Shown piece by piece: positions 1 through 64,000 of a DNA stretch of 64,000 bases. A program made the position numbers and the translations under genes. The first letter of the stretch is position 1. Each line of letters opens with the position of its first letter. Origin of the DNA: Candidatus Liberimonas magnetica (GTDB lineage: Bacteria; Elusimicrobiota; Endomicrobiia; Endomicrobiales; JAFGIL01); assembly GCA_020523885.1 (NCBI GenBank), contig JAJAPY010000004.1, positions 62,001 to 126,000 of the forward strand. The letters are read 5' to 3'. The notes under the pieces are model-generated. The model saw only the letters and a program-made list of their open reading frames with translations, was not told where the DNA came from and ran no database searches.

Positions 1-440
1 CAATACTAAAGCCTGTTTCTTTTAACAATAGGGCTAATGGTTTATCCATAAAAATGACTTGTTGGCCCAGGAAAATTCCTCCCGTTTCTAATACCCTATT
101 CATTTCTTTGAATAGCTTTACAACAAGGTCATCAGGAAACAGTTCCGTACCGAGGGCATTTGAGTAAATCATTGATATCTGTCCATCATTAAACGGCATG
201 TCGCAGGCATCTGCCCTGTGCAGGACTATTTTGCTGCGCTGTTCTTCAGGCAGGTTTATCCATTTATTAAAGATATCCTTAAAATTATAGTGATCAAGTT
301 CTATGACATGTATTTTCCCGACATCCGGATATTTGTCTAACAGTACAAGTGTTTCTCTTAAGCTTGAGCCCGTTCCTATATGTGCAATTTCCTTTCCTTC
401 AATATACTGTGAAACAGGCACATCCTTCCTTTTTGTTTCA
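1..440 (-). other. Methyltransferase-like domain, cut by window edge
   Basis: EIAHIGTGSSLRETL looks like SAM-binding motif I (Gly6856 within the loop), with an acidic residue at the end of the next strand in HVIELDHYNF, then VLHRADACDMPF and a hydrophobic strand SMIYSNALGTELF. This order matches class I SAM-dependent methyltransferases. The domain continues beyond the window. Confidence 0.5.
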
Positions 441-20935: not shown

Positions 20936-20952
20936 ATTTTTGTTAAACAAAT

Positions 20953-20988: not shown

Positions 20989-21468
20989 TTAAAGCCTTTT
21001 AACCCTATACTTAAACATAGCACTATTGTCAATGGCACCCCTCGGCAATAGATACAGCATGCATATAAATAGCAGAAAGATGAGTAAATTCCTCCATTTT
21101 TCCGGGTAAAATTTAGTTAAGCCAGGGTCTGTAACTTTGGATTTAGCGTATATCAGAAAAGTCATATCCGGACATGTTTTCCACATCGGGGATAGATTGC
21201 TTGTTGAAGTCCCGCAATATAGATTGCTTGCCTGGCCCTGTTTGGTTTCTTTTGTTTTATCGGATTTATCCTTGCTTAAAGGGAAGGTTTGAGCTCTGGC
21301 TGTATTTATTGAAAGGTCTATTAAAGTACATAAGGCTGTAAAAGGATTGCAGCTTGTTTTCAATGCTTCTTCAGAAGTAGTGTTGGTTTTTGGTTCTATA
21401 GTAAAAAGTGAGACAAAAGCATTAGCTGTTAAGCATAAAACTATTAATAGCACCAGCTTATTTTTCAT
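20989..21468 (-). CDS. Small exported protein, 159 aa, unknown function
   Basis: The protein starts MKNKLVLLIVLCLTANAFVS, a clear signal peptide or anchor. It has a polar, lysine/threonine-rich middle with four cysteines (SCNPF, LCTL, YCG, TCPDM) that could form disulfides outside the membrane, and ends with one hydrophobic segment (LLIFLLFICMLYLLP) and a basic tail. It may therefore be a secreted domain held by one or two membrane passes. I do not recognise a family. A GGGG-containing stretch sits a few bases before the ATG and a good promoter precedes it. The giant gene follows after a hairpin, so the two may be co-transcribed by read-through. Confidence 0.7.
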   Translation of the reverse strand: MKNKLVLLIVLCLTANAFVSLFTIEPKTNTTSEEALKTSCNPFTALCTLIDLSINTARAQTFPLSKDKSDKTKETKQGQASNLYCGTSTSNLSPMWKTCPDMTFLIYAKSKVTDPGLTKFYPEKWRNLLIFLLFICMLYLLPRGAIDNSAMFKYRVKRL

Positions 21469-44017: not shown

Positions 44018-44031
44018 GCTAAAAAGAAAAC

Positions 44032-44427
44032 CTAACTATTTTTATTTTCCTGCAGCTGATGATGTTTTTCAAAAGCATTATGAAGGGTACTTTTAAATTC
44101 GTCCTCATTTACCGGTTTGATTAGGAACGCGAAAGCTCCTTCATTGAGCGATCTTGTCGCCATTTCCTTGGAAACGTTTGCCGTAAGCATGATTACTAAG
44201 GTGTCAGGGTATTCTTTTTTTATCCTGCGCAGCAATTCAAGCCCGTTTATACCGGGCATCATCATATCCGTTAAAATAACAGGAAAACCGCCTGCTTCGG
44301 ATTTCATTTTTCCTACCGCTTCCGTAGCTGACCCTACAGGGACAGCATCATAGCCCAGGAATTTGGCCGATTCGCTCAGGAGTTCGAGTATGCTTTCATC
44401 ATCATCAACAATAAGTAATTTATCCAT
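44032..44427 (-). CDS. Single-domain CheY-like receiver (truncated duplicate)
   Basis: A receiver domain of about 131 aa: LLIVDDDES, VILTDMMMPGINGLELL with the phospho-acceptor Asp, IMLTANVS (Thr switch), and FLIKPVNEDEF (Lys). A GTG at 44436 would add three residues, but MDKLLIV aligns with the twin gene MDKILIV, so the ATG at 44427 is preferred. It ends at FEKHHQLQENKNS, exactly where its twin continues into the coiled coil and PAS, so this copy lost its PAS at the duplication junction. It overlaps or abuts the cheA stop (44433). Confidence 0.9.
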   Translation of the reverse strand: MDKLLIVDDDESILELLSESAKFLGYDAVPVGSATEAVGKMKSEAGGFPVILTDMMMPGINGLELLRRIKKEYPDTLVIMLTANVSKEMATRSLNEGAFAFLIKPVNEDEFKSTLHNAFEKHHQLQENKNS

Positions 44428-44432
44428 GATCT

Positions 44433-46088: not shown

Positions 46089-46106
46089 GATATCCTATTC
46101 TCCTTA

Positions 46107-47640: not shown

Positions 47641-47880
47641 AGCTGCTTTGGTCTTTTAACCCTGCGGGTGATGACCCGAAGGGTTACACCGTACCGGCAA
47701 CACAGTTTCGGTGTATCCCCTTCTTCGCATTGCCTGCTCCGCCGAAGTAGTCTCTATGGCTACGAAGGCCGGGCATCTGCGGGTTTACGCCCGCAGTTTT
47801 TCTGCGAAGGGGGACAAAAAACAGCACCCTTTTGCAGGGTGCTGTTAAAAAACATATTTCTTGTCCAAAAAGAATATTCA
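47641..47880. repeat. Region dense in inverted repeats between cheY and giant gene 2
   Basis: Several palindromes lie in a row: accctgcgggt with acccgaagggt (47659-47685), tacaccg with cggtgta (about 47685-47715), ctgcggg/cccgcag followed by five T (47777-47801, plus strand), and the giant-gene terminator at 47816-47845. The motif ccgccgaagtag and cttcgcattgcctgctccgc resembles dispersed palindromes of other uncultivated bacteria. Frames over it on both strands are low-complexity by-products. Confidence 0.5.
47816..47845 (-). terminator. Rho-independent terminator of giant gene 2
   Basis: acagcaccc (47821-47829) pairs with gggtgctgt (47837-47845), a 9-bp stem with a 7-nt loop. On the minus strand the stem is followed by six T (complement of 47816-47821). 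It lies about 210 nt after the stop of the giant gene. Confidence 0.8.
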
Positions 47881-47989: not shown

Positions 47990-48058
47990 ATGGCGCATGT
48001 AATAAGCAAACAATGGTCTAACCCGGAATTTGCAATAGGCTTTGGAATTCGCTGCTAG
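47990..48058 (+). CDS. Possible 22-aa small ORF convergent with giant gene 2
   Basis: ATG at 47990 is preceded by GGAGG at 7-8 nt spacing, and the frame reads MAHVISKQWSNPEFAIGFGI, then two residues and TAG at 48056-48058, overlapping the giant gene's stop on the other strand. Upstream, cctccggct and agccagagg (about 47905-47940) can form a stem enclosed by gctgc/gcagc. The strong ribosome site and structured leader are suggestive; a chance hit is quite possible. Confidence 0.25.
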   Translation: MAHVISKQWSNPEFAIGFGIRC

Positions 48059-51000
48059 GCTGCTGACTGTATCAGCAGTGTTTTGGCAACATCAACCGCA
48101 TTACCAGCTGCATCTTTCATCTTCTCGCTGTCAATCTTGAACTCCATGAAAACATCACCGAAGAGCTGCATTATATCAGCAATAGTCCCGACATCATTGA
48201 TATCCAAAACCAGTTTTCCTGAGTTCAACAAGCTTAAGATGTTTTTCAAAAATTCATAGATATTGCCAGCGCCTGTCAATGACTCTGGTATATTCAAATT
48301 CGCAAGTTCAGTTCTTGCCATTGGCTCTTTAACATACTGCATTGATAAAATATAGGCAAATTTCTTAATATTGGCTTCGTTTTGACCTGCATAAAGCCCT
48401 CTATTCTTTTGTAAGAATGCGGCAATTTTATCAGCAACCTGAACTGCTGCGTCAGATGTGTTCCTGTCAATTTCAGCCCTTGCAGCAAGCGCATTATAGT
48501 AACCAAACCACACATGCAGGTTAGCTTCAGTAATAGGTTCTGATTCAAGGATTTTTGCCTTATCAAGAATTTCTTCGATTAATTTTGCATGCTTGCGCAA
48601 GGAAGCTATGCCGAGCCTTGCTATCTCGTTTACCAGGGCAAAGTCATCGGTCAACGAACTATTAGCATCAAACTTTACATTTGCCAGGCTTGCTTCTATG
48701 TCTGAGATATCGCCGAAGGCAACAGCAAGCGGTATGGCCCTGGCAGCTGCCACTCTGGTTTTTGCAAGATTTCTGGCAGGAACAAGTAGCGGCCTTATAG
48801 CTTTTCTAACTTCGGCATCTTTTGACAGAGTCTTCTGCTTGAGCGTGTTAGCTTCTACAAACTTATTCTCAGCCGCCTGTTCCAAGACTCCCTTAATGAA
48901 CCTCTGTATTAATTCTTCATATTTTGGCATATCAGCCTTGTCAATTTCAGCTTTTCTTATCAGGTCAAGCACAAAATCCCTTATAACCCGCAGGTCCCTG
49001 TTATTGCCGGCTTCAAAAGATACAGCCGGACGGTTAAGGATTTCTTTTAATTTAGCGGCCATTACTCCTTCTTCCAATTTAGCAGAAACTACGCTGTATA
49101 AATCTCCGAAAATTAAATCCTTAAGCGCAAGTTTTTCAGCTACTTTCTGGCCTGTTGCATAGGCTTCATCAGCTGTCATTTCATGGCTGCTCAAGATTTC
49201 TGCAAACTGGGCAAAAAGTTCTTTAGCTATCCAGTACGGGACATCATTTGAAGAATCGGGATTTCTCTTGTTTTCATTTATGTCAGTATCGACAAAAAGT
49301 ATGCTGTCAGGAATATTTACATACCCGAATTTACCTACCTTAGACCTCAACAGCTTGAGCGTTGCCTTCAAATTCTCAACAGTTTGGTTCTGTATTCCGT
49401 CCTGAGGAATTACAGCTTCAAGCCAGACGTCCTTGTCTTCCTTCATTCCTTCCAAAATACTGGAATCACTTCCTATCTCAAATTTTTTAACAAATTTAAA
49501 ACCAAACTGCTTGCACAAATCCAGCGTTTTCGTGTCTCCTTTCAAGGCCTCCGGGACATCTACCGGTATAATAGCATTCGGTTTTACCTTGTTTACATCA
49601 GCTCTTAATTTTTCAAGGAATGAACTCAATTCATCATAAGTAAGTTCAGATTTAGAAAGATCAAGGCCGACACCTGCATAGCCGCGTTTTATAAATTCAT
49701 CCCCGGATTTTCTATCAAGCAGATGATATACCGCAGACATTCTTGCAAGCTCCGAATTACTCCTGGCTACAATCAGCCAGCCAAGCATAGGCTCACGCTT
49801 AGCATCATAGACAGACTGAATACCTTCATTTGCCTGAGTTTGAGTATTTACTATACCAAATATTTCACTGCCATAGTTTGTAATCAGATCGACATCCGCA
49901 GAGATCCCTTTTGCTTTCCTAAATAAATCTGCAAGCTCAGGAACAACATCCAGGAATTTCCGGGCATCATATTTCGTCTGGCCTTCAACGCTCTCATTTA
50001 CATAGGCAAACGGCATAGCAGGCCTCAACAACGGATTTTTCTCATTGCCCTTGACCATAAACAAGTTGGCTCTTACGGTTTTCCAGGACCTGGCAATATT
50101 AGCATTAAGGTCAGTCCACAATCCATGATTTGGATTGCCTTTTTCTCCGTACAAACTTTTCAAGTTACCAAGTACGGCACCGGACACAATATTTCCCGCA
50201 GCTGTAAGAAGCCCGGACTTTGCAACGATGGTTGAGCCCATTTTGGTAACTACATTTTTAAAATTCCTGGTGGATGAATCAGCCACATTATCCAAAACCT
50301 TCTTCAAAAGAGGCGGAAGTCCTCTATACAAATCCCACGGGCCGAAGAAAATAAGTGCAGAGCGTAGGAACATAAGGTTTTTTTCGCTGTTATTTTCATC
50401 CTCAAGATTAGGCAGTCTGTCAAGCTGTCTAACATTGGCATCATTACTGGTATAGGCTTTACCCCTTAGGACAGGCATTATACCTGCTGAATTTTTATCA
50501 ACTAATATGACATCAGGATTAAAGTCATCCAGATAACTTCCGGTGTCAGCTAATTTCTGGCCTAAGCTTTCTCTAAGGTTCTTATCTTCTTTAATCTGGA
50601 AAAACAATTCTCTTATCGCCTTGCCGATAATAACATCTTTATTGTCATCGGCCTGTAACCTTGACATCTCGGAAACAGAAAGATTTAAAACGACTACTTT
50701 CTTCCCGTCCTCATTAGAAGCCCTTATCTGGAAATTATAGCCATCCATATCAAGCGTGGGCTTCTCTCCCTTAAAATTAACAATGCTCCCTGCAGGATTT
50801 CCTACCTGAACCGCAAAAGACCTGATGCCGGAGTCATTGAACAGAATGATATTCTTTTGACTTTGCTTATCCATGTCTCCGACAAAAACCGGCACAACCC
50901 ACCTGCCTCTCATCTCAGGCGCCATTTTCATCAGTGCTTTTTCTGCATTGCTGGTTGCTGCTCTACCTGCTATTGATGCTGCAGCAGGTGCAAGATTCAC

Positions 51001-54000
51001 CGTGTTTTTTGCTGCAACAAGAGTAATTCCTGCAATTTTAACACCCTGAAGTTCACCGCGGCCGGTTCTGGTTTCTGCTGTACGTTCTCCAAAAAGCAAT
51101 GCTATATTAGCTAATGTAAACCAGGTTGTAAAGACAGCTGTAACTATTGAAATAACCGCCAGCGCTATTTTCACGTTGCCTGAGAGGAAAGTATTTATCA
51201 GCAGCACACTAACTATCAGCGCAAATATACCGCCGATACTCACCGCAAAATTGCCGACTATGCCTGCTATTTTAACAGGTTTAGGCATATTGTTCAAAAC
51301 TTCATAGGAACCTCCTGTAAAGGGGTTACCCTTCATTATTTCCTTAAAGGAATTCAACTGTATTTTACCGCTCCTCAGCATCCCGGCTGCTGCAATTATG
51401 TGAGCTGCTTCATGTACAAATATGCCAGGCCACAGCATTACCCAGGCAGCAAAAGATCCCTTTCCGGCTTTAGCCCTCAACTCCTGAGCCAAAACTGAAG
51501 CTACTTTTCTATCTGTTTGGCCCGGGGCTGATGCAGTCACTCCTTGTGCACCGGGTTTTGGTTTACGATAAATTTTGTTTGTGACAAACTTTGCTAAACC
51601 AATACCAATTATAACAGGCAGTAAGGCCAAACCTGCATATAAAGCGTTGGTCAATGTTAAGAACCTCGTTAAATCAAGCAATATGGCCAGCACTGCAATA
51701 TCTACAACCGCCGCTGTTCCTGCAAGGCCCAGCAACACATTAATCTTTTGTTTATAAGTAAGCGCTTTTTTAGCCTTCGGTGCTGCTGGTTTCTTGGCAA
51801 CAACAGCCTTAGTCGGAGCAGGAAGAGCCGCAGCAGGTACAACGGCAGGAACTGCGACTTGAGTTGCTTTGAGAGGAGATGCAACTTGAACTACATTTTT
51901 AGGCCCATATTTTTCTTTCATCGAATTAAATATTTCCAGCAATTCAATTAGTACGGCGTGTTCATCAAAATTTTTATAGCCTAATAATGCTTTGCGTAAT
52001 TCGTCTGGAATATCATACAGAAGTTTAATTTTTAGTAGTTCGGGTTCACTAGATAATTGAGATAACTCTGTCCAATCCTTAATAATATAACCTCTAAACC
52101 AAAATGCCTGGCAAGCTAACCGGAAATCCATTAACATTGCATTTTTATTGTCATTATATCCTGCCTTTTCCTCATCTGTTGCCTCTTCCCATAATGTATC
52201 GGCGGAAACACCAACAATTAAATCAGTATTTAAAACTGCTTTTCCAGAGTCAGAATATTTTTTTATTAATCCATTGCTGAATTTTTTAATCAATTCTTCA
52301 GCTTTATCCGACGGCTGAATATAATTCAGAATTTTCCCAGGCACGGCTTCTGCCGTTGCATCTGTAGCTTGAGGTAACGACTCAGGTGCAGGAGCAAAAG
52401 CTGCTTGCATATTACCTACCGCTTCAGCAACAACATCCACAGTTTTGACAGCAAGCAGTTTTACCATATCAACAAAATCTAGATTTTCAACTTTTTCTTT
52501 AAGCTCAGCGGTAAATACCTCGAATTCTTGTGCAGTAACAGTTTCTTCCTCTTCGTCAAGAAGCTTGGTGAAGAACTTTACATCGCGGTCCAAATTCTCT
52601 CCTTCAACACCTGCTGCATGCCACAGTTCATGGTATAAAGCTGCTGTAAACAATATCCTGCCCAACCTGGTTTTTGCTATTTCAAGGAAAGCCTCATCAA
52701 AAACCACAACATTGTCTTTTTGGTAACCTGCAAGATAAGCATACTTTTTCTGAAGAGCGATAAGTATTTTTTTATTGCCAAGGCTTATACCGCGGCCTGT
52801 AAGTTGAGGATCAGCTTTTATCTCTTCTGCCACAGCATTGTAGGCCTGCTTAATAAGCCTTGCGAAATCATCTGGATCTTTTCCTGTAATATTATCTACA
52901 AACTGTTTTTTATCAGCCGGGTCCATTTCAAAGTTTGTGCCTAGTATTTGTTCTTTATTCCCTTCTTGCACAGAAACATCTATGTTCGTTGTCCTGCCTT
53001 CACCTTTAAGCTTAAGCACATCCATGGCAGCTAAAGGCATTGCCAACGGAACCTCCTCGGCGTTCGAAACCCCTGCTGAAACAATTTTAAACAATTCATT
53101 TAAGGTTAATATGGTTAAGAAATTCACATGATCCGGATTCCTCATCATTTCCCGTATTTGAGGCCTTGCTTCTTCTACCGCAGCTTGTGCGCCGGATAAA
53201 CTTCCTTCATTCTTTAGCCGGACAGCTTCAAAGAGCAAGGTGTCTACTGCAAGGATCTCATTAGCCCTGGCATTCATCTTAGGCAATTTGCCTATGTCGC
53301 TCATAATTGATTTATGATATGATACTTCTTCAGCAGTCCATACCCCCTCTGCAAAATCCGGAACCTGAAGCATATCTGCGGCAGCTATTTCAACAGCTTC
53401 TTTTGGCGGAAGCGCCTCTAAACCCGCCATAAATTTCTTTTTTATTGCCGGCACTATCACTAGATCTACATCCTTTTTACTTAAGGGTTTAAGGTCTTTG
53501 GCTTCGGAATCTAATTTCATAAGCACTTTTGCAGCTTCTGCCTGGTCATTTTTGCTCATCTTTTTCAGCTTTAACCCTATTGCTATCGGAGCTAATGCCT
53601 TTAATGCTTCCTCAAGTAAAGCATTCACCTCCGGGTCATCAAAACCCCTCCCGTTCTTCTTCATTCTGGCAATTACTTCTTTAGCCATATCCTCCAATGC
53701 CTTTTTAGACCTCTTGTCTGCCTGCGCCTGCAGAAACCTCAGGTAAGTGGGGTGGCTCTTAACGTATTCAAAGGTCTTAGCTCCTATTACAAATAAATCT
53801 TTTAATTTTCCTGAAGCAAGCGCATTTCTTATCAAGCTGGATGAAATTGGAATGCTTGTCCCCATCATCAAATTCGCAGCTAATTCTTTAGGAGGCTTTA
53901 CGTGAACCCGGTCAGCCGGATCTTCAAACCTGTCTATAAACCTCGCCTTTACTTTTTGGGTGTTGGTATCAAACACATATCTTTCACCGGGATTTTTGTA

Positions 54001-57000
54001 TTCTTGATGATACGGGAATTCTTTTTGCCTATCTTTAGGCACGACTACTGTTGACTCCTTTCCATCTGTATCTGTAAATTTATAAGTCTCCCATCCCTGA
54101 TTAATTACTAAACGGACTAAGGTATCCTGCCTGAAATTACCCTGTCCTTGACCTACATAGGTATAGGTCCTTTTATTTTCATCATAGAGAAAATCGCCTT
54201 TTTTCTTATCCGGAACAAAATGTTTATAGTGGTCCCCTCCGACTAAGTATATACCGGTTGCAGGATTAGCCCCGTTCGGCATGTTTCTATTTAAATCTAT
54301 GATCCGGAAAAAGTCAGTTTCTCCAAGGAAATCATTGCTGTAACCTATCGGTGAATACTGGGCAAACTCTCCTAATAAGTTTAACGCCCACTCTTCAGTG
54401 GTAAGTGAATGCCTGTAATCCACGGTTGCAGGGGTCAGGGCTTTACGGAAATCTGCTCCCTGAACTCTTATCAAAACCTTATCGCTCTCATCCTCAACTA
54501 TAGCTTTTAAACCCGCCACCAGATCGTGCAGCCTGGTTGCAGGGTCGCTTGATATTGCGAAATACTGGAATGACGGCTCTTTCTTTCCGTTTGGATTGGC
54601 TGCCTGCTCCCCTTTTATACCTACATTAAACCTTATCTCCGGATCAATCTTTTTCTTTTCCAGCAATATAGCTATTTTTGCTATATTTTCTATTAAATCA
54701 GTTATCATAGGCCTTGCATCCGGATGCACCAGCCCCATCTTGACAACCATTCCTCCTTTTTGTTCATAATTCACAACTATTCCCGTCTCAATTCCCTGCA
54801 GCCTGAAATCTTCCATAATACGTTTAAGGAGCTTTTGAGTACGGTCATTTGAGTTAATAGTGTTGATAAGAACCTTTTCCCATAAAGGGCTTACCAGGGC
54901 ATCAAATTCATACCTGTCTATTTCATCTATCGTCCCATTCCTTGCCATGCTGCGGTCTAAATAGCCTAAAATACCTTCTAAAGAGGCTTTGTCATCCCTT
55001 GCATCGCTAACCTGATTAAGAAGCTTTTCAGTAATAAATAAAGAATTATTTCCTACACAGGCATTAGGCAGCGCTTCATCAAAAGGATCGAAAATCTCTA
55101 CACCTTTTATTGTGACTGCCTGGGGCAAGAGGATGCACAGCCTTCGCGTTAATATGTCTTTATTCAATTTTAGTGTTTCATCTTTATTGTTAGCCAGACA
55201 GGCCGCATTAACGGCCTGGGCGGCTTTTATGGCAAGCACTACTTTTTCTTTAAGTAGTTTGAGTTCACGGTCACCAGGCAGATTTTTGGCAAGCAGAGCT
55301 TTTATACCTGCAAGCTGAGCCGGGCTGATTTCAGTAAACACTGCCAACAAATTATCTGTATTTCCAAACAATCCTTCAACATAGGCTTCGACATCTGCTG
55401 CAGCAGCCGCGGTATTTAAATCTATCCCGATCACCCGCCCGGCATTTATGGCATTTCTTGTATCATTATCAACTCCAGCTTGATAATTTCCACCCAAGGT
55501 TTTCTTTGCATCAATTCCGGATAATCCTTTTGCAACCTTACCTCTGAAAAACCTTCTGCTCTTCTTGAAAACACCCGGAAAGGTTCCACTGATTTTCCTC
55601 TTGTTCTTCATTATTATTTTTCTATCTGCCTGTCCCTGGCTGGCACTGCTGATGCTCAGCTTGTCATCTATAAGCGAACCCATGTTTATGCAGCCTATCA
55701 AATCATTAACCGCGGCAGTTGCCCGTTCTTGAGTCAATGTTTGCCTCATAGTTTCATCGCTGCTCAAGTCAACGCCATACCTTTTAAAAGCCTGCCGTAT
55801 AACTTTAGACTTACTAAGGGCCTTAGAATCAAATCTGGCAATATCAAGCTCACCCGGCATATACGGGGATGCATCTCCTTTTTTGGCTGTGGACTGTATT
55901 GCTTTCCAAAGCACCGCAGTATCTTTTTCCCCGTAAATAGGCGCGTCCGAATCTTCGATTACAGCTGCTATCCGGACCCATAAACCTACGGTATTTTCCC
56001 AGATAGGTTCAAAGATTAGATACAGCAAAGCATATATGCCCTGAATTATACCTTTAACTACGGTAATATTAAATACAGGCAGGCTGGTCAACAGGTCAAC
56101 CCATTTAAGATTCCTTAAGCGTTTATACTGCAGTTCTTGCACTGCTGTCATTTTTTCCGCTTCAAAAATCTTTTTCTTTGTTTCAAGCTCGGTTTTGTAC
56201 ATCTCTTTCCTTTCTCTAAACTGCCTTGTATAATTGTTCCAGACAGACCCTGCCTGGCTTGCGGCTAACGTATGAGGGAACATGGATAACAGTTTTTTCT
56301 TGTTTTTCATACGGGTTTCTTTATCAGCCGCTGTTTTTTCCGCTTTTTCAAGACCCTGATTGTCTTCAAGAAGTATGGCAAGGTTAGGAATAGCTATAAT
56401 AAAATTCATTGCAGCAGCCAATTTTTCAGCAGGAATAGCATCAGGGAGAGCCGGGTTAATTTCAAATTTTTCAAATACTTCCTTTATTATTTTAAAGCCC
56501 AGGCTGCTTTTAGGGTCTTTTTTAATAGCTGCAGCATCAATTTCAGCCGCACGGTAGTCAGAAACCTCAGAACTCAGGAACAACAACCCGGACAAATTCT
56601 GCCAGATATCTTTGAATACCGCAGCTCTGCCCAGGCCCTTGTCTTCATCCATTTTAATCCATTTTTTGAAAGGTTCTGCCAGAGGAGTCCTGAGCGAATC
56701 TGCCAACGAAAGCCCGTTATGTAAAAATGGGCCGATAAGAAAAGCTATAGGCAGTACGTAAAAGAAAAATTGAGCGCCCAGAGCAAAAGGATGAAAGGAC
56801 GAGATTGCAATAATGGCCAACATTAACGCTGCCCAGCCTACTGACTCGCTGAAGGCATCATATAATATCCCGAACGCTTTGCTCGCCTGTTTTATAGCTT
56901 TGTTTCCTCCTATAAAGAAGCCGGCGCTTCCTGTCAGGGAATTCATGGTTTTTAGCGTATCATTCGGGACCAGGGATAAGAAAGTAAATACCAGGCTCCA

Positions 57001-60000
57001 AAACCTTTTAAAACACATCGTAAGGCCTTTCATTGTTCCGTATCTTCCGGCAAGATGAAATTTTGAGTCTATCAGCCAATATATGCCTGCAATTAAGGCT
57101 ATTACTGCCAGAGGAATAAAATAGGCCGGCGCTGCAAATAAAGCAGCAGGAGCAGCTAGTAAACTCCCAAAAAATATCTGTTTTGGATAAGAATATAATA
57201 GGACTATTCCCATAGCTACTCCGGCAGCCACAAACAATGGAAGCGTAAGTGCCGGCAGGGTAAAAAATGTAGCTGCGGCAAGCCCTAAGCAGGCAATAGA
57301 TGAGATGAACAATAATTTCATCGGGCCTTTTAAAAATCCAAATTTTTGCAAAATAACCCTATACGCGCCTGAGCTTATAGCCTGGGCAAAGACAAACTGC
57401 ATCCCGATGAAAAACAACGGCATCGCCAGGTACGCAAACGGCGTAAACGGCAGGAAAAAGGCAAACAAGAATATCAACGTATTAAAGAAAGGCACTACCG
57501 CCTGGGTAATATAATGGTCCCAACCGCCCAGCAAGGTAAGTTTTTCTGTCCAATGCAGGAAATTGCTCTGCATGGCCATGGTATAAATAGCAGATACGGT
57601 AGTCATAGCTGTAAACCCGCCAAACCTGTTATCAAAAGCGACCATATCACCCTGCGCCATTTCCCTGTTTCTTCCGATGGTTATCCCCGGGAAGTAGGCA
57701 GATACGAAGCCCTTTGTCTTTGCTACCAGGGCAAGCTGCGAATCCTCTATGCCTGACTCTGTGGTAGGTAAATCTCTCATAATTGAAAGCCTCGATATAA
57801 GAGGACCGTACATATACGCAGTCCCGACTCCTATCATGGCCATAATAACGCGCTGGTTAAACGTATCTTCTTTTATCATCGAATCCCAGGCGGTTCCTGC
57901 CATACCTTCGCCGTAGGCAACATCGCGCATGTCAAGAAAACCAAACCCCAGGTCCGGGTGCCTGCTGAATTCATAAGCTGCCTGAGGTAATTGCCACAGC
58001 GAATCAATCGTATGTTCCCAGTCCAGGTTAAGAATCATTGCTTCCTTGTCCGTGACATGCATCAAGGCCTTTACCCAGTTATCGGCTTTGTTACCCCAGC
58101 CGCTGCCGCCTTTAAGAATGTCTTTGGGCTCATCCCATTCTCCAATCATTGCCAGATGCGCTATTAAATGGCCGTCTTTATCATAATGATTCTCGCTTGA
58201 ATGGCCGTCTTTATCATAAGCGTCTGACCCGGGCACCCATCCCAGCTCTTCCATGTCTTCCTGTAATGTCGTTCCAAACAGTTTCTTTACATTATCAGAA
58301 AATCCCTTATCATAGGATGCTACCATGCGGTAGTATTTCATTACTTCTTGGTCCGTAGGTTCATGGCCCAAGGAATGCCGCAGGAATATCTTATAGGCGC
58401 TTAAGGATGCATCATGAGCAGTAAGCAGTGTTTTCTTTACATTGTCAACCCTGTACATTATAAACTGACTGATGATTTGACGGGAGAACATTATATCAAG
58501 CAATTGGGTCTGTAAGTCCGATAGATCCTGTTTCTTGAAATAATCACTTAAAAGGTCAAAGTAGCTGTCAGGCATATGAGGCGGCAAATCGTCAGGGAAT
58601 GGGATATTAAATTTCTCCCTTATCCTGTCAAGATCGACAAAGGTCATGTGTATAAACTCTTTATCCAGGGCATCTAAAATCTCCTGTTTACTCATAGCCA
58701 TTATGTCAGCTGAGGACCTTTCCTTTGACAAAGGCTGGCCCTTCTCATTATACCCCAGGAGCAAAATATCTTTACCTTCTTTTTTCATGTCCACCAGCTC
58801 TCTTATCATTTTTTCGTATGAAAAATACTGGTCTTTATAGCGTTCAATAAACGCCTCTTGCTCTTTCGGCGGTAAATTACTTGAAAGATATTTCAGATAT
58901 ACAACCCAATCTCCGGAGTTTACTTGTTTCACCAGCCTGAACGGGCTCTTTAAATCCCCTCCAGCCGCGCCTTCAGACTGCGGCCTCATATCATCTAAAC
59001 CTGAGCGGACTACCACGCCCAACTCTGACCAGGAAGAAGGCTTGGTTATTGTCCTTAAGAATGTTTCCGGATGGTCCCTTGCAGCTAATAAAATTTTATT
59101 GAACTCATCTGTACTGTGCAGGTTTACCTGGTTAAAGAAATCAACCAGCTTTCTTTGCGCATTAGGGTTTTCTAATTTAGGCAGTGGTTTGCCTGAGGCC
59201 AGGGCTTCTTTTAAAGCTTCTGCCTCCTGGGGCGTTACTATGGGCGCTGCTCTCTGGCCTCCAGATTGCTGGCCCAAGAGGACCCTGTCCACAATATCTT
59301 CATTAAATACATCACTTAAATACCCGTCATCGTGTACCTTCTTGATAAGTTCCGGCGTTATATCTGCATATACTGAAAGCTGCCTGATCTTGTGCTGTCG
59401 TTCCATAGCCACGGTTTTTGCCTCAAGCCCAAGGGACCAGAACGTCCGCAAAGAAAGGATAGAGGTAAAAACAGCCAGGGCAATTCCTATGGCATAGCCC
59501 ACAGGCAAAATCTGGCCTAAGGCATAATAGGCCGATGTCCCTACCAAAAATGAAAATGTTGTAAAAAACGCCCCGCCGAAAATCGTCCAGAACTTGGATT
59601 TTCCTTGTACCCTTTCCTTTGACCCTGTATAGCTTTTTGCTGTTTTCCAGATAGTCAGGTAGAGCCGTACCCTGTATTTAATAATATAAATTACAAAGGA
59701 ACTCCACTGAAGCAGCTGGCGGGCTAAGATATAATAAATCGGTACAAACCAGATTAAGCTTCCAGGCTGTCCTACCAATACTAAACCCAGGCCTGCGGCA
59801 GCGCCAACAATTATAAGAACTTTCTTTAAAATCTCATAGCCATTAGACGTTTTGGTAAACGGGAAAGGATAGTAGCTTACACCTGAAGGCCTGGAAAACC
59901 ACTGCAAAGCCGCATAACCTAACAAGCAGAGAGGGACAAACCAAATTAAATTTACAAAAATCCCGTTTAAAAGAATATACAGGCCGCCTGCAGCCCAAAC

Positions 60001-63000
60001 AGCTGTCAAGGAGACTACTAAAATCTTGAACAGCACTGAGCCCTTATCAAGAATAGCGATACCCAGGGTCTTGTATTTTTCTTTCTGGTAAGCACGCATA
60101 CGGTCCAGGAGCCTGTCCCGGACGCCTTCTTTAATATTTTTGGTCCGCAGATCGTCACTGATAGAAGTTACCACTTTTCTTTTTGCATTAAGAAGTATGT
60201 TTTTGTCGCGGAAAGCCTTTCGTATATCAAGAGCCGGCACAGCAGAGTCCCGTGCAGGGCTAAGCGCAGGGTCATTGACAAACTTGCCATTTTCATCATA
60301 CTTCATTTTCTGGCCAGTAAAAGGATCTATCCCGTCTTTTCTGCAGTATTCCAGGAAGTTCCTGAATTCAGCGGTTGCCATTATCAGCATTTCTTTCTTT
60401 GCCTCACCGGCAACATTTGTATATTCCTGATAGGGGTTATCCATGTTACTCCAGGTTTCCCAGACTCCGCGGTTTTGGTCAATAATCTTATATTGGTTTC
60501 CCTGCCACATTATGAACCGGTCCAATTCCTGGGCCATACACGAATATAAGACAAGCGCAGCCGGCTCAATAACCAGCTTCTCTATTTCAGTAAGTTCCAT
60601 CTTAAACGTATCCTTGTATTCAGGATATACAGGTTCAAACATCTCGTCACGTTTCGGTCTGGCTGTTTTTCCGTCCCATTCAGGGTAGAACCTCCTAATT
60701 AACGCGTCTTCCATTTCTTTTTTCTTTGCTCTCAGCGCTGCTTTTTCTGCATCATCAGCTCCTTTTTCCGGGTCTATGTTAAACCCGCCTTCTTCATAGA
60801 GGTCAGCTAAATACTGCACTAAGGGGCCTACGCTTGTAGCAGGCTTGATCAAGGTTCTGATCCTCTGCCTTACGGCCGGGGCAATATCCTCCGAGCCTGT
60901 ACCTTTGAATTTTGAATCATTGGGTTTACCGGGTTCGACAGTATCCACATCTGGGCCTACAGCGATATTTGAAGGTTCCCTGCCTTCTTTTTTCGCTTTT
61001 TTGTTCCTTTTCGTTATATAACTGTCCATCAACAGCCAGGAACCGAGCCAGGTAACAAACAAAAGCGCTGTGGGTAATCCTAGAGTAAGGACAATAATAA
61101 AAGTTAGAGCAGCCACAATTGTTATTTTCAGGTTTTCAGGGCGCAGCAAATTTGCAACCGTACTGTTTGCAAGGATATGCTTTGTAACAAAAACATTCAT
61201 GAATTCATTGAACAATGCAAGCCAGTTACGCGGGTCTGCCGTAAAATTTTTGAATTCCAGTGGTTTAAACCGGCCCGTACTTACGTCCTCTCTGATTCCG
61301 CCAATAAATTTTTGCCTGTTCCTTTTGGTTGTTTCTATCAGTTTATCTGCTTTTTGTTTAGAAAGAGTCAGGAAATGTTCATTTTGCAGTTGTTTTGCCT
61401 GGCCGGGAGTAAGCACTCCTTGAGCCAGCAAAGTATCAATATTTATTTCCGGGCCATCGACAGACTCTGCCAGGGCATGGACCTCTTTATCATATTTATC
61501 AGAAATTATAGCCTGGTCATAAACATAATAGACATTATTCTGGCCTTCAAGCGCGATCACGTAATGCTTTTTTATAGGCCTTTCAGTGCCGTCTTCTAAT
61601 ACCGCCCTCGATTCATAGGGCAGCCCAAGTTCGCTAAAGTAGAGGCGGTAAACGGGCCATTTTTGCCCCTTCATAGTTTCGCCCCTGAGGAACTGCTGGC
61701 CCGGTTCAGGTTTTTGGAGCTCGTATAACATGCTTCCATCCTGCCTCAACGCTATTTCTCTTATGTCTTTTTTATCCCAAATTCCGGGATATTCGGTATT
61801 GTATAGCAACACATAAATATCCTGGTTCTTTTCATCCTTTCTTTTTTCAAACCTGCGGCCGCTGGAGCGGGACAGCCAGTTGCTGTCTTTCCAGGGATCA
61901 CCGGTGGGGTCAGGGAAAAGCATGAAGACTTTCCTGTTTGACACGGCATAAGCCTGGGAACCAAAACCCTTTGTCTTATCAAAAGCATAAGTATAGGTTT
62001 CTTCGGAAAATCCGAGTTTTGCCAGGAGAGCATCTTCCTTTTTAGCAGCCAGGCTTTTATAATGGAAAAATTGGATATAGACTGCTCCCTCTAGACTGGT
62101 TACGTTTCCGTCCGCATCTACTCCCAGACCCTTTATATTGCCGTTCTTATCTAATTCAAAACCATTTAGATTTACAACCGGCAGGCCTTCGGACGTATAC
62201 CCGGTAACTTTTACATCAGTCCTTATATAACCTGTCTGATCAATTTGATTCAGCAGCCTGCTATATAAAGCATAAGGGTTGCCTGCGTCTACATCAACAG
62301 AACCGGGATAGAGAATGTTTGAAATTTCATGGAAAAAAGTTTTTCTGCTTACGGTATTCCCGCTTAAATCAGTATAACCAAATACCCCGTCTATCTTTCC
62401 TAAATGCGTTGACATTGAGGTCGGTTTCCAAACACCGTCTTTATACCGCATGGCAACGGACTTGCTGCCTATGCCGAATTTATCAAAACCATAATTATAT
62501 TTAATGGAATACGGCTGGGACAATTTATTGTCTTTAAACACCTCTTCAACTACTACATTTCCCCTGAAATCTCTCCAGGTGCGGTTGCTTAATAAAATCT
62601 CTTTCGCTTCAATACCTGCAATAACAAGGTCTTCAATGTTGGTTACTCCCTTTGAAACTATAATCAAATTCTTCCAGTCAACGCTTTCAAGCTCGCCTTT
62701 GTTAACAACTACCTTCTGGCTGTAATCGCCGTTTATGTAGTAAGCTATCTCTGTTTGTAACGGGATGCCCATGCTCGCAAGCCTTCCTGTAAAAGAGGGC
62801 ATAATTTTGAACCTTTTCGTATCGGCATAATTTGACAACTCGCTCTTATTGACCACAAAAGTTATATTTTTTTCTAAATCATAAACAAAGGTCTTTTTAG
62901 AGTCGCTGTATTTAAAATTCAAGCTGTATTCGAGGTTCCAGTAAGCTCCCAGAATAAGAGGATTAGGTTTTGCTGGATCAGATGACAGGGTTTTCCAAAA

Positions 63001-64000
63001 TTTGCTTTTACTGCCGCCGGCTTTATCAGCCAGGCCGGTAAGCGAGCCGACCCAATCCTTTGACCAGCTGTCTAGCAGCGTGCCGTCTTTAACTGCCAGA
63101 TGGAACTCGCTCAAAAGGACTCTGGTGGCAGAGTTTCTTCTTTCTATAAACACTTTGGTATTTTTAAAATCTACAACCAGCGTATATTCGCCTCCTGCTA
63201 TGTTCATAGATACAGGCGGCAATACAGTGCCGCTGGCATCCTGGTAATTCGCCAAATCAAACCTGGCGCCGGCCAGCTGTGTCTTTTTAGTTGACTTATT
63301 TATTATATTAAAACCGAAATCAATCAAACCTTTTTCATCTATCTTTATCCACGGCTGACTGCCCCATTTAGAGCTAAAGGCCTGATAGGAAGTGGTTACT
63401 GTTTTCCCGTCGGGTGAGAGGCCGTTGATTTTTACCCAGATTAATTCTTTGGGGTCAGGCACATCCGTAAAGCCCTGAGCTTTAAGATATGCCGAGAGAT
63501 TTTTCATTGCCTCTAACCACGCTTTGGGTATATTATTTGAGTCCACACTATTTGCCTTTGCAAATTCACTGTAAGATACTCCTGCCAGAAAAACATATAA
63601 CTTGCTTTGTTCTTCAGCAGTAAGCTTATAGTCTCCCAACAGCAAATTCGCCGGATTATTTTCTAAACTATCAACCATCTCCTGCTGTATAATGCCTGTA
63701 CCGGACTTGTCACTTGAAACTACAAGATAACCGCATTTTACCAGAGCTTTGAAAACTTCTTCAGCCTTCTTGTCACTGCCAAAAATAGCCTTAAGGTCAT
63801 TAAGGGAAACTGACCACCCGTATTTATAGGCATTGCCTGCTTTCTGGACTAAGGTATAGCGCAAGGTGTTTTTAGTTTGTTCAACCGAATAATCTAAAGC
63901 GCCGGTGTCGGTTTTAAGGCTTAACAAGGTGCCGTCCAAGCCGACTTTTACCGTGGCATTGTCCACTACCCTGGGGACTAGATTGCCGTGTCCGTCATCT
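48055..64000 (-). CDS. Giant multidomain membrane protein 2, N-terminus beyond window (at least 5314 aa)
   Basis: The frame is open from the right edge to a TAG at 48057-48055. The first apparent start inside the window (GTG at 63966) is internal, since the frame continues unbroken to 64000. Layout, N to C: a beta-rich, tyrosine/tryptophan-rich region of unknown type (about 64000-61700); a membrane segment near 61100; paired membrane helices near 59900 and 59550; a GT2-like glycosyltransferase region (57600-58110) with a large membrane domain after it (57520-56690); a duplicated domain (56560 and 55860); a NadD-like region (53735-54440); a HELWH domain (52620); an intramembrane HEAAH protease-like domain (51060-51745); then a long mostly helical C-terminus. 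Likely an envelope protein that makes or modifies surface polymers; the combination is not one I recognise. Confidence 0.9.
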   Translation of the reverse strand, partial: DDGHGNLVPRVVDNATVKVGLDGTLLSLKTDTGALDYSVEQTKNTLRYTLVQKAGNAYKYGWSVSLNDLKAIFGSDKKAEEVFKALVKCGYLVVSSDKSGTGIIQQEMVDSLENNPANLLLGDYKLTAEEQSKLYVFLAGVSYSEFAKANSVDSNNIPKAWLEAMKNLSAYLKAQGFTDVPDPKELIWVKINGLSPDGKTVTTSYQAFSSKWGSQPWIKIDEKGLIDFGFNIINKSTKKTQLAGARFDLANYQDASGTVLPPVSMNIAGGEYTLVVDFKNTKVFIERRNSATRVLLSEFHLAVKDGTLLDSWSKDWVGSLTGLADKAGGSKSKFWKTLSSDPAKPNPLILGAYWNLEYSLNFKYSDSKKTFVYDLEKNITFVVNKSELSNYADTKRFKIMPSFTGRLASMGIPLQTEIAYYINGDYSQKVVVNKGELESVDWKNLIIVSKGVTNIEDLVIAGIEAKEILLSNRTWRDFRGNVVVEEVFKDNKLSQPYSIKYNYGFDKFGIGSKSVAMRYKDGVWKPTSMSTHLGKIDGVFGYTDLSGNTVSRKTFFHEISNILYPGSVDVDAGNPYALYSRLLNQIDQTGYIRTDVKVTGYTSEGLPVVNLNGFELDKNGNIKGLGVDADGNVTSLEGAVYIQFFHYKSLAAKKEDALLAKLGFSEETYTYAFDKTKGFGSQAYAVSNRKVFMLFPDPTGDPWKDSNWLSRSSGRRFEKRKDEKNQDIYVLLYNTEYPGIWDKKDIREIALRQDGSMLYELQKPEPGQQFLRGETMKGQKWPVYRLYFSELGLPYESRAVLEDGTERPIKKHYVIALEGQNNVYYVYDQAIISDKYDKEVHALAESVDGPEINIDTLLAQGVLTPGQAKQLQNEHFLTLSKQKADKLIETTKRNRQKFIGGIREDVSTGRFKPLEFKNFTADPRNWLALFNEFMNVFVTKHILANSTVANLLRPENLKITIVAALTFIIVLTLGLPTALLFVTWLGSWLLMDSYITKRNKKAKKEGREPSNIAVGPDVDTVEPGKPNDSKFKGTGSEDIAPAVRQRIRTLIKPATSVGPLVQYLADLYEEGGFNIDPEKGADDAEKAALRAKKKEMEDALIRRFYPEWDGKTARPKRDEMFEPVYPEYKDTFKMELTEIEKLVIEPAALVLYSCMAQELDRFIMWQGNQYKIIDQNRGVWETWSNMDNPYQEYTNVAGEAKKEMLIMATAEFRNFLEYCRKDGIDPFTGQKMKYDENGKFVNDPALSPARDSAVPALDIRKAFRDKNILLNAKRKVVTSISDDLRTKNIKEGVRDRLLDRMRAYQKEKYKTLGIAILDKGSVLFKILVVSLTAVWAAGGLYILLNGIFVNLIWFVPLCLLGYAALQWFSRPSGVSYYPFPFTKTSNGYEILKKVLIIVGAAAGLGLVLVGQPGSLIWFVPIYYILARQLLQWSSFVIYIIKYRVRLYLTIWKTAKSYTGSKERVQGKSKFWTIFGGAFFTTFSFLVGTSAYYALGQILPVGYAIGIALAVFTSILSLRTFWSLGLEAKTVAMERQHKIRQLSVYADITPELIKKVHDDGYLSDVFNEDIVDRVLLGQQSGGQRAAPIVTPQEAEALKEALASGKPLPKLENPNAQRKLVDFFNQVNLHSTDEFNKILLAARDHPETFLRTITKPSSWSELGVVVRSGLDDMRPQSEGAAGGDLKSPFRLVKQVNSGDWVVYLKYLSSNLPPKEQEAFIERYKDQYFSYEKMIRELVDMKKEGKDILLLGYNEKGQPLSKERSSADIMAMSKQEILDALDKEFIHMTFVDLDRIREKFNIPFPDDLPPHMPDSYFDLLSDYFKKQDLSDLQTQLLDIMFSRQIISQFIMYRVDNVKKTLLTAHDASLSAYKIFLRHSLGHEPTDQEVMKYYRMVASYDKGFSDNVKKLFGTTLQEDMEELGWVPGSDAYDKDGHSSENHYDKDGHLIAHLAMIGEWDEPKDILKGGSGWGNKADNWVKALMHVTDKEAMILNLDWEHTIDSLWQLPQAAYEFSRHPDLGFGFLDMRDVAYGEGMAGTAWDSMIKEDTFNQRVIMAMIGVGTAYMYGPLISRLSIMRDLPTTESGIEDSQLALVAKTKGFVSAYFPGITIGRNREMAQGDMVAFDNRFGGFTAMTTVSAIYTMAMQSNFLHWTEKLTLLGGWDHYITQAVVPFFNTLIFLFAFFLPFTPFAYLAMPLFFIGMQFVFAQAISSGAYRVILQKFGFLKGPMKLLFISSIACLGLAAATFFTLPALTLPLFVAAGVAMGIVLLYSYPKQIFFGSLLAAPAALFAAPAYFIPLAVIALIAGIYWLIDSKFHLAGRYGTMKGLTMCFKRFWSLVFTFLSLVPNDTLKTMNSLTGSAGFFIGGNKAIKQASKAFGILYDAFSESVGWAALMLAIIAISSFHPFALGAQFFFYVLPIAFLIGPFLHNGLSLADSLRTPLAEPFKKWIKMDEDKGLGRAAVFKDIWQNLSGLLFLSSEVSDYRAAEIDAAAIKKDPKSSLGFKIIKEVFEKFEINPALPDAIPAEKLAAAMNFIIAIPNLAILLEDNQGLEKAEKTAADKETRMKNKKKLLSMFPHTLAASQAGSVWNNYTRQFRERKEMYKTELETKKKIFEAEKMTAVQELQYKRLRNLKWVDLLTSLPVFNITVVKGIIQGIYALLYLIFEPIWENTVGLWVRIAAVIEDSDAPIYGEKDTAVLWKAIQSTAKKGDASPYMPGELDIARFDSKALSKSKVIRQAFKRYGVDLSSDETMRQTLTQERATAAVNDLIGCINMGSLIDDKLSISSASQGQADRKIIMKNKRKISGTFPGVFKKSRRFFRGKVAKGLSGIDAKKTLGGNYQAGVDNDTRNAINAGRVIGIDLNTAAAAADVEAYVEGLFGNTDNLLAVFTEISPAQLAGIKALLAKNLPGDRELKLLKEKVVLAIKAAQAVNAACLANNKDETLKLNKDILTRRLCILLPQAVTIKGVEIFDPFDEALPNACVGNNSLFITEKLLNQVSDARDDKASLEGILGYLDRSMARNGTIDEIDRYEFDALVSPLWEKVLINTINSNDRTQKLLKRIMEDFRLQGIETGIVVNYEQKGGMVVKMGLVHPDARPMITDLIENIAKIAILLEKKKIDPEIRFNVGIKGEQAANPNGKKEPSFQYFAISSDPATRLHDLVAGLKAIVEDESDKVLIRVQGADFRKALTPATVDYRHSLTTEEWALNLLGEFAQYSPIGYSNDFLGETDFFRIIDLNRNMPNGANPATGIYLVGGDHYKHFVPDKKKGDFLYDENKRTYTYVGQGQGNFRQDTLVRLVINQGWETYKFTDTDGKESTVVVPKDRQKEFPYHQEYKNPGERYVFDTNTQKVKARFIDRFEDPADRVHVKPPKELAANLMMGTSIPISSSLIRNALASGKLKDLFVIGAKTFEYVKSHPTYLRFLQAQADKRSKKALEDMAKEVIARMKKNGRGFDDPEVNALLEEALKALAPIAIGLKLKKMSKNDQAEAAKVLMKLDSEAKDLKPLSKKDVDLVIVPAIKKKFMAGLEALPPKEAVEIAAADMLQVPDFAEGVWTAEEVSYHKSIMSDIGKLPKMNARANEILAVDTLLFEAVRLKNEGSLSGAQAAVEEARPQIREMMRNPDHVNFLTILTLNELFKIVSAGVSNAEEVPLAMPLAAMDVLKLKGEGRTTNIDVSVQEGNKEQILGTNFEMDPADKKQFVDNITGKDPDDFARLIKQAYNAVAEEIKADPQLTGRGISLGNKKILIALQKKYAYLAGYQKDNVVVFDEAFLEIAKTRLGRILFTAALYHELWHAAGVEGENLDRDVKFFTKLLDEEEETVTAQEFEVFTAELKEKVENLDFVDMVKLLAVKTVDVVAEAVGNMQAAFAPAPESLPQATDATAEAVPGKILNYIQPSDKAEELIKKFSNGLIKKYSDSGKAVLNTDLIVGVSADTLWEEATDEEKAGYNDNKNAMLMDFRLACQAFWFRGYIIKDWTELSQLSSEPELLKIKLLYDIPDELRKALLGYKNFDEHAVLIELLEIFNSMKEKYGPKNVVQVASPLKATQVAVPAVVPAAALPAPTKAVVAKKPAAPKAKKALTYKQKINVLLGLAGTAAVVDIAVLAILLDLTRFLTLTNALYAGLALLPVIIGIGLAKFVTNKIYRKPKPGAQGVTASAPGQTDRKVASVLAQELRAKAGKGSFAAWVMLWPGIFVHEAAHIIAAAGMLRSGKIQLNSFKEIMKGNPFTGGSYEVLNNMPKPVKIAGIVGNFAVSIGGIFALIVSVLLINTFLSGNVKIALAVISIVTAVFTTWFTLANIALLFGERTAETRTGRGELQGVKIAGITLVAAKNTVNLAPAAASIAGRAATSNAEKALMKMAPEMRGRWVVPVFVGDMDKQSQKNIILFNDSGIRSFAVQVGNPAGSIVNFKGEKPTLDMDGYNFQIRASNEDGKKVVVLNLSVSEMSRLQADDNKDVIIGKAIRELFFQIKEDKNLRESLGQKLADTGSYLDDFNPDVILVDKNSAGIMPVLRGKAYTSNDANVRQLDRLPNLEDENNSEKNLMFLRSALIFFGPWDLYRGLPPLLKKVLDNVADSSTRNFKNVVTKMGSTIVAKSGLLTAAGNIVSGAVLGNLKSLYGEKGNPNHGLWTDLNANIARSWKTVRANLFMVKGNEKNPLLRPAMPFAYVNESVEGQTKYDARKFLDVVPELADLFRKAKGISADVDLITNYGSEIFGIVNTQTQANEGIQSVYDAKREPMLGWLIVARSNSELARMSAVYHLLDRKSGDEFIKRGYAGVGLDLSKSELTYDELSSFLEKLRADVNKVKPNAIIPVDVPEALKGDTKTLDLCKQFGFKFVKKFEIGSDSSILEGMKEDKDVWLEAVIPQDGIQNQTVENLKATLKLLRSKVGKFGYVNIPDSILFVDTDINENKRNPDSSNDVPYWIAKELFAQFAEILSSHEMTADEAYATGQKVAEKLALKDLIFGDLYSVVSAKLEEGVMAAKLKEILNRPAVSFEAGNNRDLRVIRDFVLDLIRKAEIDKADMPKYEELIQRFIKGVLEQAAENKFVEANTLKQKTLSKDAEVRKAIRPLLVPARNLAKTRVAAARAIPLAVAFGDISDIEASLANVKFDANSSLTDDFALVNEIARLGIASLRKHAKLIEEILDKAKILESEPITEANLHVWFGYYNALAARAEIDRNTSDAAVQVADKIAAFLQKNRGLYAGQNEANIKKFAYILSMQYVKEPMARTELANLNIPESLTGAGNIYEFLKNILSLLNSGKLVLDINDVGTIADIMQLFGDVFMEFKIDSEKMKDAAGNAVDVAKTLLIQSAA
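51060..51745 (-). other. Site-2-protease-like (M50) intramembrane domain in giant protein 2
   Basis: IFVHEAAHIIAAAGML (HEAAH at 51414-51400) lies at the end of a hydrophobic helix, with two membrane helices before (51740-51580) and two or three after (51290-51070). NIALLFGE in the last helix resembles the second M50 motif, without the usual Asp. This fits a membrane-embedded zinc protease within a giant protein. Confidence 0.5.
52440..53000 (-). other. HELWH zinc-peptidase-like domain in giant protein 2
   Basis: ALYHELWHAAGVEG contains H-E-x-x-H (codons 52632-52618), the zinc site of gluzincin/metzincin-like peptidases, preceded by a hydrophobic helix and followed by an acidic stretch that may provide the third ligand. 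Immediately upstream, YQKDNVVVFDEAFLE supplies strands typical of the fold. Substrate unknown. Confidence 0.5.
53735..54440 (-). other. NadD-like nucleotidyltransferase region in giant protein 2
   Basis: GIYLVGGDHYKHF (near 54240) and SIPISSSLIRNALASGKLKD (near 53840), followed by VIGAKTFEYVKSHPTYLRF, match the second half of nicotinate-nucleotide adenylyltransferases, where GaDsl and ISST-x-IR bind the nucleotide phosphates and a V-x-x-YI-x-x-H-x-LY tail follows. The N-terminal H-x-G-H motif was not found, so the site may be altered or inactive. Confidence 0.55.
55561..56560 (-). repeat. Internal duplication in giant protein 2
   Basis: A domain of about 100 residues occurs twice. Copy 1 (about 56560-56270) runs from AEIDAAAIKKDP to RMKNKKKLLSMFPHTLAAS; copy 2 (about 55860-55561) runs from DIARFDSKALSK to IIMKNKRKISGTFPGVFKKS. 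Shared features are a helical start, VFEKF/AFKRY, an alanine-rich helix ending in an Ile/Asn stretch, and MKNK-x-K followed by FP. Between them lies a two-helix membrane-like stretch. Confidence 0.6.
56690..58110 (-). other. GT2-like membrane glycosyltransferase region in giant protein 2
   Basis: In order on the minus strand: GWGNKADNWVKAL (like the G-K-x-x-x-LN donor loop), AMILNLDWEHTIDSLW (in the place of the DxD aspartates), TESGIEDSQLALVAKTKGF (like the TED acceptor motif), YFPG, and FDNRFGGF (where processive enzymes have Q-x-x-R-W). About eight hydrophobic helices follow (57520-56690). This order matches processive GT2/GT84-type polysaccharide synthases such as cellulose or cyclic-glucan synthases, though the motifs are divergent. 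Confidence 0.5.
58167..58218 (-). repeat. Direct repeat encoding two YDKDGH units
   Basis: aatggccgtctttatcata occurs at 58167-58185 and again at 58200-58218, 33 nt apart, giving an 11-residue in-frame repeat with YDKDGHSSENH followed by YDKDGHLIAH. Identical DNA implies a recent duplication; DxDG units often bind calcium. Confidence 0.8.

Follow-up and report, generated by a model that had tools for sequence, protein, structure and literature searches.

Extent and continuity of the giant gene

We wanted to know whether the very long reading frame at the right end of the analysed DNA belongs to one gene, and what a protein of this size might do for the cell. The window, that is the whole stretch of 64,000 nucleotides that was analysed, covers C4:62001-126000 of the Candidatus Liberimonas magnetica genome (3.39 Mb, 29 contigs), which belongs to an uncultured member of the Elusimicrobiota, order Endomicrobiales. 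An initial annotation, made from the window, had read at least 5314 open codons there. The minus-strand frame at 48055-64000 does consist of 5,314 codons with zero internal stops, and it is open at the window edge, as had been claimed. Extension to the right, which the same annotation had proposed, showed that the frame continues to C4:135359 (8,434 aa) and then meets a scaffold gap of 100 N (C4:135254-135353). Past the gap a frame of 6,931 aa on the same strand runs up to C4:156045 (window coordinate 94045). Both sides together amount to about 15,300 aa, so that the gene has three times the length seen in the window. The probable start reads MYYTKILLNN, with a GGGAG ribosome site ahead of it. 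No frameshift was seen in the frame. Features within the window are collected in Table 1; membrane segments along the giant were read from hydropathy.

Table 1. Features of the giant gene and of related genes in the window (window coordinates)
Feature	Position	Strand	Remarks
Giant gene, C-terminal third (aa ~9990-15306)	48055..64000	minus	open at window edge
Extracytoplasmic beta-type region, aa 10152-10556 (predicted)	62308..63522	minus	matches giants of G003 (2.8e-19, 3.9e-18), G058 and G011
Membrane-helix region before GT domain, aa 10949-11507	59455..61131	minus	hydropathy; homology to G013/G191 giants
GT48-like glucan-synthase domain and transmembrane channel region, aa 11876-12560	56296..58350	minus	family HMM, 466 bits
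K-A-D-N, corresponding to FKS1 K1082-S-D-N1085 (UDP-Glc binding)	58078..58089	minus	alignments
D-W-E at position of FKS1 D-A-N / DxD motif	58015..58023	minus	alignments
E-D, corresponding to catalytic E1221-D1222 of FKS1	57742..57747	minus	alignments
NadD-like nucleotidylyltransferase domain, aa 13058-13435	53671..54804	minus	A8 profile
T-R-L-H replacing catalytic HxGH	54526..54537	minus	alignments; HWGH in relatives
ISSSLIR, the NadD (S/T)-S-x-I-R motif, kept, aa 13377	53827..53847	minus	sequence, alignments
Zincin-like domain with HELWH (motif 52618-52632, aa 13782)	52399..52989	minus	motif in homologues
Polytopic membrane domain with HEAAH (motif 51400-51414, aa 14188)	50947..51846	minus	M50-like by arrangement only
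C-terminal tail I-Q-S-A-A	48058..48072	minus	fits [ILVMT]xxA[AGS]-COOH
Terminator-like hairpin 3' of giant, 11 bp, 6 G-C	47820..47846	minus	~210 nt past stop
Small bitopic membrane protein, 159 aa, ends TM + LLPRGAIDN	20989..21468	minus	directly upstream of giant 2-20950
Other family giant, 12,656 aa, C4:45028-82998	2..20950	minus	N-terminal domain at window 19262-20695

A repeat of ~133 aa spans the gap (aa 6775-6896 vs 6908-7027, E 7e-42). The ~120 aa on either side are copies of one repeat, and behind them a ~511-aa repeat occurs about four times. Since the gap falls in a repeat common to both flanks, the natural reading of the sequence is that the giant would be one gene, continuous across the 100 N. 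The presence of the gap could also mean that two or more unrelated genes were misjoined in the assembly. We consider this very improbable, as the same repeat lies on either side and as the order of N-terminal domain, SecA-like ATPase and GT48 domain, described below, is found in gap-free ORFs of two relatives (G003, 8,368 aa; G011, 10,563 aa).

The initial annotation stated that no known family joins the parts of this protein, and this agrees with our searches. Neither Pfam nor NCBIfam has a model for the chain, whole-chain Pfam scans gave nothing useful, and such a chain is not described in the literature searched. An (alpha/alpha)6 glycosidase was seen by eye at aa ~3850-4480 and was rejected, as searches of the PDB and Pfam gave it no support.

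The giant belongs to a family with a common N-terminal domain

At least 18 giant ORFs of this genome, from 2,423 to ~15,300 aa long, have a common N-terminal domain of ~530 aa. Together these 18 amount to about 130,800 aa or 392 kb, which is 11.6% of the genome; this is a lower bound, because four of the giants run off contigs. The domain (alignment A7) is present in the window giant and in 68 of 336 sampled Elusimicrobiota genomes. Among the motifs conserved in it are INIQDLHCHPEVQRNI, YVEG and TGGFHT. No relatives of the domain were found in Pfam, NCBIfam or the PDB; by eye it appeared TraB/ChaN-like, and this candidate was dropped as the profile found no relative. A second member of the family lies at the other end of the window, and it has only the N-terminal domain in common with the window giant (35% identity over 560 aa, E 3e-101).

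The family members also resemble each other at the C-terminus. A tail of the form [ILVMT]xxA[AGS]-COOH was present in 31 of the 39 members with complete 3' ends and in 12 of the 14 such giants of the own genome, compared with 5 of 277 background ORFs (1.8%), a frequency at which we reject chance as the source of the tail. The binomial P value of 5e-47 overstates the enrichment, as the members are not independent of each other by descent and the pattern was picked once the ends had been inspected; apart from the tail, the ends of the paralogues in this genome have little in common. By analogy, the tail resembles a C-terminal signal of the ssrA or tail-protease type and might act as one.

A gene for a small membrane protein directly precedes 12 of the 18 own giants, and the partner gene of the window giant lies just upstream of C4:156045. 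These small proteins mostly end with a helix followed by LLPRG(S/A/T)ID, or with SKSNLPWEI. Similar small genes precede giants in G003, G005, G011 and G117. No Pfam family was found for the small bitopic protein.

Further, an intrinsic-terminator hairpin is located 12-55 nt before the start codon in 10 of the 18 giants and in 1 of 61 background ORFs (p 3e-7). The hairpin of the window giant, with a T-run, lies at C4:~156007-156029. As there is little promoter room between hairpin and start, it is likely that transcription reads through under regulation or that the hairpin acts within the mRNA. Antitermination of the RfaH type is weakened as an explanation, because the genome has only one NusG. 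No match to a riboswitch or any other Rfam family was obtained.

Giant proteins of Omnitrophota and Elusimicrobiota are known, have few annotated domains and are poorly understood in function (PMC10066038, Seymour et al.; PMC11573180, a survey of huge proteins); they are likewise treated in PMC12057145. The present giants are similar to them in their ORFs of many kb, their many helices, the near absence of annotated domains and their frequency in the phylum. Unlike the published giants, the family described here has a common N-terminal domain, a common tail and a small partner gene, and GT48 plus SecA-like parts, usually in one member per genome. A family with such a domain, tail and partner gene appears undescribed in the literature searched. 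This one family of giants thereby obtains a defined anatomy that can be tested.

The glycosyltransferase domain is best matched with GT48

The initial annotation described a GT2-like glycosyltransferase. A glycosyltransferase of the processive type agrees with our comparisons, but its nearest known family is GT48, represented by FKS1, and a search of the giant gene with PF00535 (GT2) gave no match. This domain, like the NadD-like domain described below, is invisible to Pfam directly and is supported through its homologues. The window copy alone had no Pfam match, and a profile of three sequences, made from its closest relatives, found nothing significant. Homologues of the region occupy ORFs of 3,000-10,988 aa in other Elusimicrobiota genomes, and ten relatives in giant ORFs connect the window domain to PF02364. 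The best of them (G017) reached 229.5 bits over profile positions 3-694; weak Pfam matches on relatives that covered small parts of a profile were ignored. One relative on its own matched FKS1 with E 1.3e-16. Comparison of the group of the window domain with the ten GT48 relatives by hhalign gave a probability of 99.8 and E 2e-27.

We compared profiles of different composition with known structures. The A1 profile (seven sequences including the window copy) matched FKS1 at 2e-20 and the GT2 cellulose synthase BcsA at about 1.4e-7. The A4 profile (five divergent sequences including the window copy, without the two best relatives) gave FKS1/GSC2 as its only PDB match (5e-4). This match is made up of two collinear blocks, of which the latter lies in the membrane region that follows the GT domain. 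The domain therefore shares with BcsA the processive membrane GT-A type, but the BcsA match is clearly weaker than that to FKS1 and is gone with the five-sequence profile. With GT48, the beta-1,3-glucan synthases of fungi (FKS1/GSC2) and plants (callose synthases; PF02364), it shares a GT-A core that aligns collinearly and the channel region behind that core. The group as a whole resembles GT48 more closely than a common GT-A fold would explain, and so does the window copy when compared by way of profiles. Structure prediction, which had been proposed as a check, gave low values (AlphaFold mean pLDDT 33 for the window domain with an 8-row alignment, 40 for its close GT48 relatives with a 7-row alignment).

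Residues K1082 and N1085 (UDP-Glc binding), D1102 and catalytic E1221 and D1222 have been assigned in FKS1 (PMC12715860). They align with K85, N88, D107, E199 and D200 of window:56299-58341, so the window copy keeps the catalytic E-D pair as well as the UDP-Glc-binding K and N. The D-x-N motif of GT48 is altered. The subclade of the window copy has DWE, DRD, DTD or DFD in its place, while the relatives in set A3 have DMN, DIN or DAN, and relatives keep both DxN and the YGHP ... K(G/T)RE motifs of GT48. Because of DWE we call the domain GT48-like and regard it as a divergent sister group and not as a plain member, and for the same reason the linkage or the donor may differ. It differs from GT48 also in being bacterial and in being embedded in a chain of 15,000 aa, and what it would produce is judged from its sequence. 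On the matches described above, the domain appears nearer to GT48 than to GT2.

To our knowledge, GT48 is known only from eukaryotes; it is the target of echinocandin antifungals. No link of GT48 to Elusimicrobiota or Omnitrophota was found in the literature searched, the usual giant-protein preprint being outside its scope. A bacterial GT48 branch makes the origin of GT48 and its minimal enzyme testable, and an ancient bacterial lineage, if true, would be relevant to where the glucan synthases of eukaryotes came from.

In this genome GT48 is present in one of the 18 giants, that of the window. The region at aa 10152-10556 is conserved among other GT48-bearing giants. In the GT48 giant of G003 (G003:C7:105448-130551) a glycosidase TIM barrel (PF02836) scores over the cut-off 3' of GT48, at aa ~6730-6890; its presence fits the making and remodelling of a glycan. 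By eye, this GH2-type barrel resembles GH72 glucanosyltransferases.

A SecA-type ATPase near the N-terminus

The initial annotation missed the N-terminal domain and a SecA-type ATPase, because both lie outside the window. The SecA-type domain is found at aa ~1080-2180. In the genome scan it matched PF07517 (SecA_DEAD) at 4.4e-7, with 29.6 bits against a cut-off of 24.6; SecA_DEAD was not listed in the whole-piece Pfam scans of the giant. SecA structures in the PDB match the domain at 5e-5, and the G003 orthologue of the giant matches PF21090 at 7e-5. The domain aligns with SecA through the DEAD/PPXD junction, with a Walker A motif (GAGKT) and DEVH present. It differs from SecA in that it is fused into a membrane giant, that its GRxGR is degenerate and that an ordinary SecA (897 aa) is encoded elsewhere in the same genome (C2). 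A part in preprotein translocation or export would be a guess based on this resemblance.

A search for the same fusion in other genomes had also been advised. What recurred was the N-terminal domain, then an SF2/SecA-like ATPase and later GT48, in one ORF each of G003, G011, G015 and G053. Walker A (GAGKT), DExH/D and GRxGR-like segments follow the N-terminal domain in all four (read by eye in G011 and G015). The Walker and GR motifs are partly degenerate and drift among relatives. A strong new element of the locus is the combination of a bacterial GT48-like synthase and a SecA-type motor in one chain.

NadD-like and HExxH domains of the C-terminal part

The NadD-like domain that had been noticed in the window is real according to its profile and its homologues. 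The A8 profile matched NadD structures (E 1.5e-7) in the N-terminal as well as in the C-terminal portion of the fold, which identifies a nucleotidylyltransferase fold, and standalone homologues matched NadD in NCBIfam (1.8e-8). The SSxxIR motif is shared with NadD. The first histidine of HxGH is lost, and the domain is therefore NadD-like and not NadD. Further differences from NadD are its position within a giant and the nature of its homologues, which include secreted-looking proteins of ~430 aa. Signal-peptide-like NadD homologues with HWGH intact were observed in other Elusimicrobiota (L121, L123 and other ~430-aa ORFs of families f21/f22). From their sequences, these standalone proteins are apparently exported nucleotidylyltransferases.

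The motifs ISSS-x-IR, HELWH and HEAAH were all found as described before. Of the two zinc-protease-like domains that had been proposed, the HExxH motifs are conserved in homologues, but a named peptidase family could not be assigned. The counterparts of HELWH are HELRH or HEMRH in homologues inside other large ORFs; the counterpart of HEAAH is HELGH in the homologue G227, which also has a GRGEL segment in common. No Pfam or PDB match to an M48/M50-type peptidase profile was found for either domain, and we therefore regard both as putative peptidases by their conserved motif.

The losses described above could mean that the GT48-, SecA- and NadD-like parts are decayed enzymes whose folds are kept in a structural protein spanning the envelope. 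The lost HxGH, the drift of the SecA-like motifs and the low identity of the GT domain to its relatives (only 18-35%, and about 18-23% to those recognised by Pfam) are consistent with it. We nevertheless find it improbable, since K, D and ED of the GT domain persist in all or nearly all relatives and HExxH is conserved in both zincin-like domains.

Proposed function of the giant

The chain begins with an N-terminal signal anchor, the family N-terminal domain, the SecA-type ATPase, a first helix bundle and long repeats. These are followed by the GT48-like synthase with channel helices, the NadD-like domain, the two HExxH domains and the conserved tail. Synthesis of a surface polymer in one membrane-bound chain, as the initial annotation had suggested, is plausible, with the GT domain supported through its homologues. 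With this anatomy in hand we infer the chemistry, and we give an even chance to the proposal that the giant works as a machine of several domains in the inner membrane, which synthesises a glycan for the surface and exports it.

The N-terminus would lie inside and the N-terminal domain outside, and the SecA-type part would be cytosolic after about three helices. The GT domain would also be cytosolic, beside its own channel. It would polymerise a UDP-sugar, probably glucose to beta-glucan, and push the nascent polymer out via its own helices, and the repeats could form an extracytoplasmic scaffold round the product. The SecA-type domain may aid export of the long outer segments of the giant or of a partner, and the HExxH domains may mature the chain. 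Since HxGH is lost, the NadD-like domain probably serves for binding or as a scaffold. We also put forward, as a tentative and rather doubtful idea, that the giant is an envelope machine that exports itself, composed of a SecA-type motor, a bacterial relative of the eukaryotic beta-1,3-glucan synthase, repeats that span the envelope and maturation domains, that it is of a new class within an Elusimicrobiota family with many giants in each genome, that its tail is read by a common machinery and that its GT48 lineage is ancient.

The chain could instead be a polyprotein, and this is the chief alternative. Signal peptidase would cut it at membrane segments inside the chain, possibly aided by the HExxH domains of the giant itself. 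The pieces would then be an N-terminal protein, the SecA-like ATPase, glycosidase or adhesin pieces, the GT48 synthase and the C-terminal enzymes. Outside the window, two membrane segments within the chain resemble each other (aa 4569-4637 and 6176-6243, 2e-9) and are followed by signal-peptidase-like A-x-A sites (AAG, LAA-R). There is also a lipobox-like LTSC after a helix near aa 3377, and relatives have series of shorter giants that carry the N-terminal domain of the family. These cleavage sites were read by eye only, and the N-terminal domain, the SecA-like part and GT48 are still joined in five genomes, even though they could easily be split. We therefore estimate cleavage as unlikely, if not strongly so.

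A role in attack or attachment has been proposed for giant proteins of Omnitrophota (PMC10066038, PMC12057145). Along these lines the present giant could be a weapon for predation or attachment, a coat or adhesin at the cell surface that uses its enzymatic domains to attack or alter the glycans of other cells. This literature on related phyla, the long repeats and the many divergent paralogues speak for such a role. However, the best-supported domain is a membrane polymer synthase with its active-site residues kept, which fits making rather than degrading, and Pfam scans of the window giant gave neither an adhesin nor a degradative family. We judge a weapon to be a poor prospect, and continue to prefer synthesis and export of a glycan.

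Region 3' of the giant gene

A good terminator had been reported to close the gene. A terminator-like hairpin is present at 47846-47820, though hits of this kind are not rare by chance. Immediately 3' of the giant, window 40977-47129 encodes CheB, CheA, a response-regulator/PAS protein and an FtsA/PilM-like actin-fold protein.
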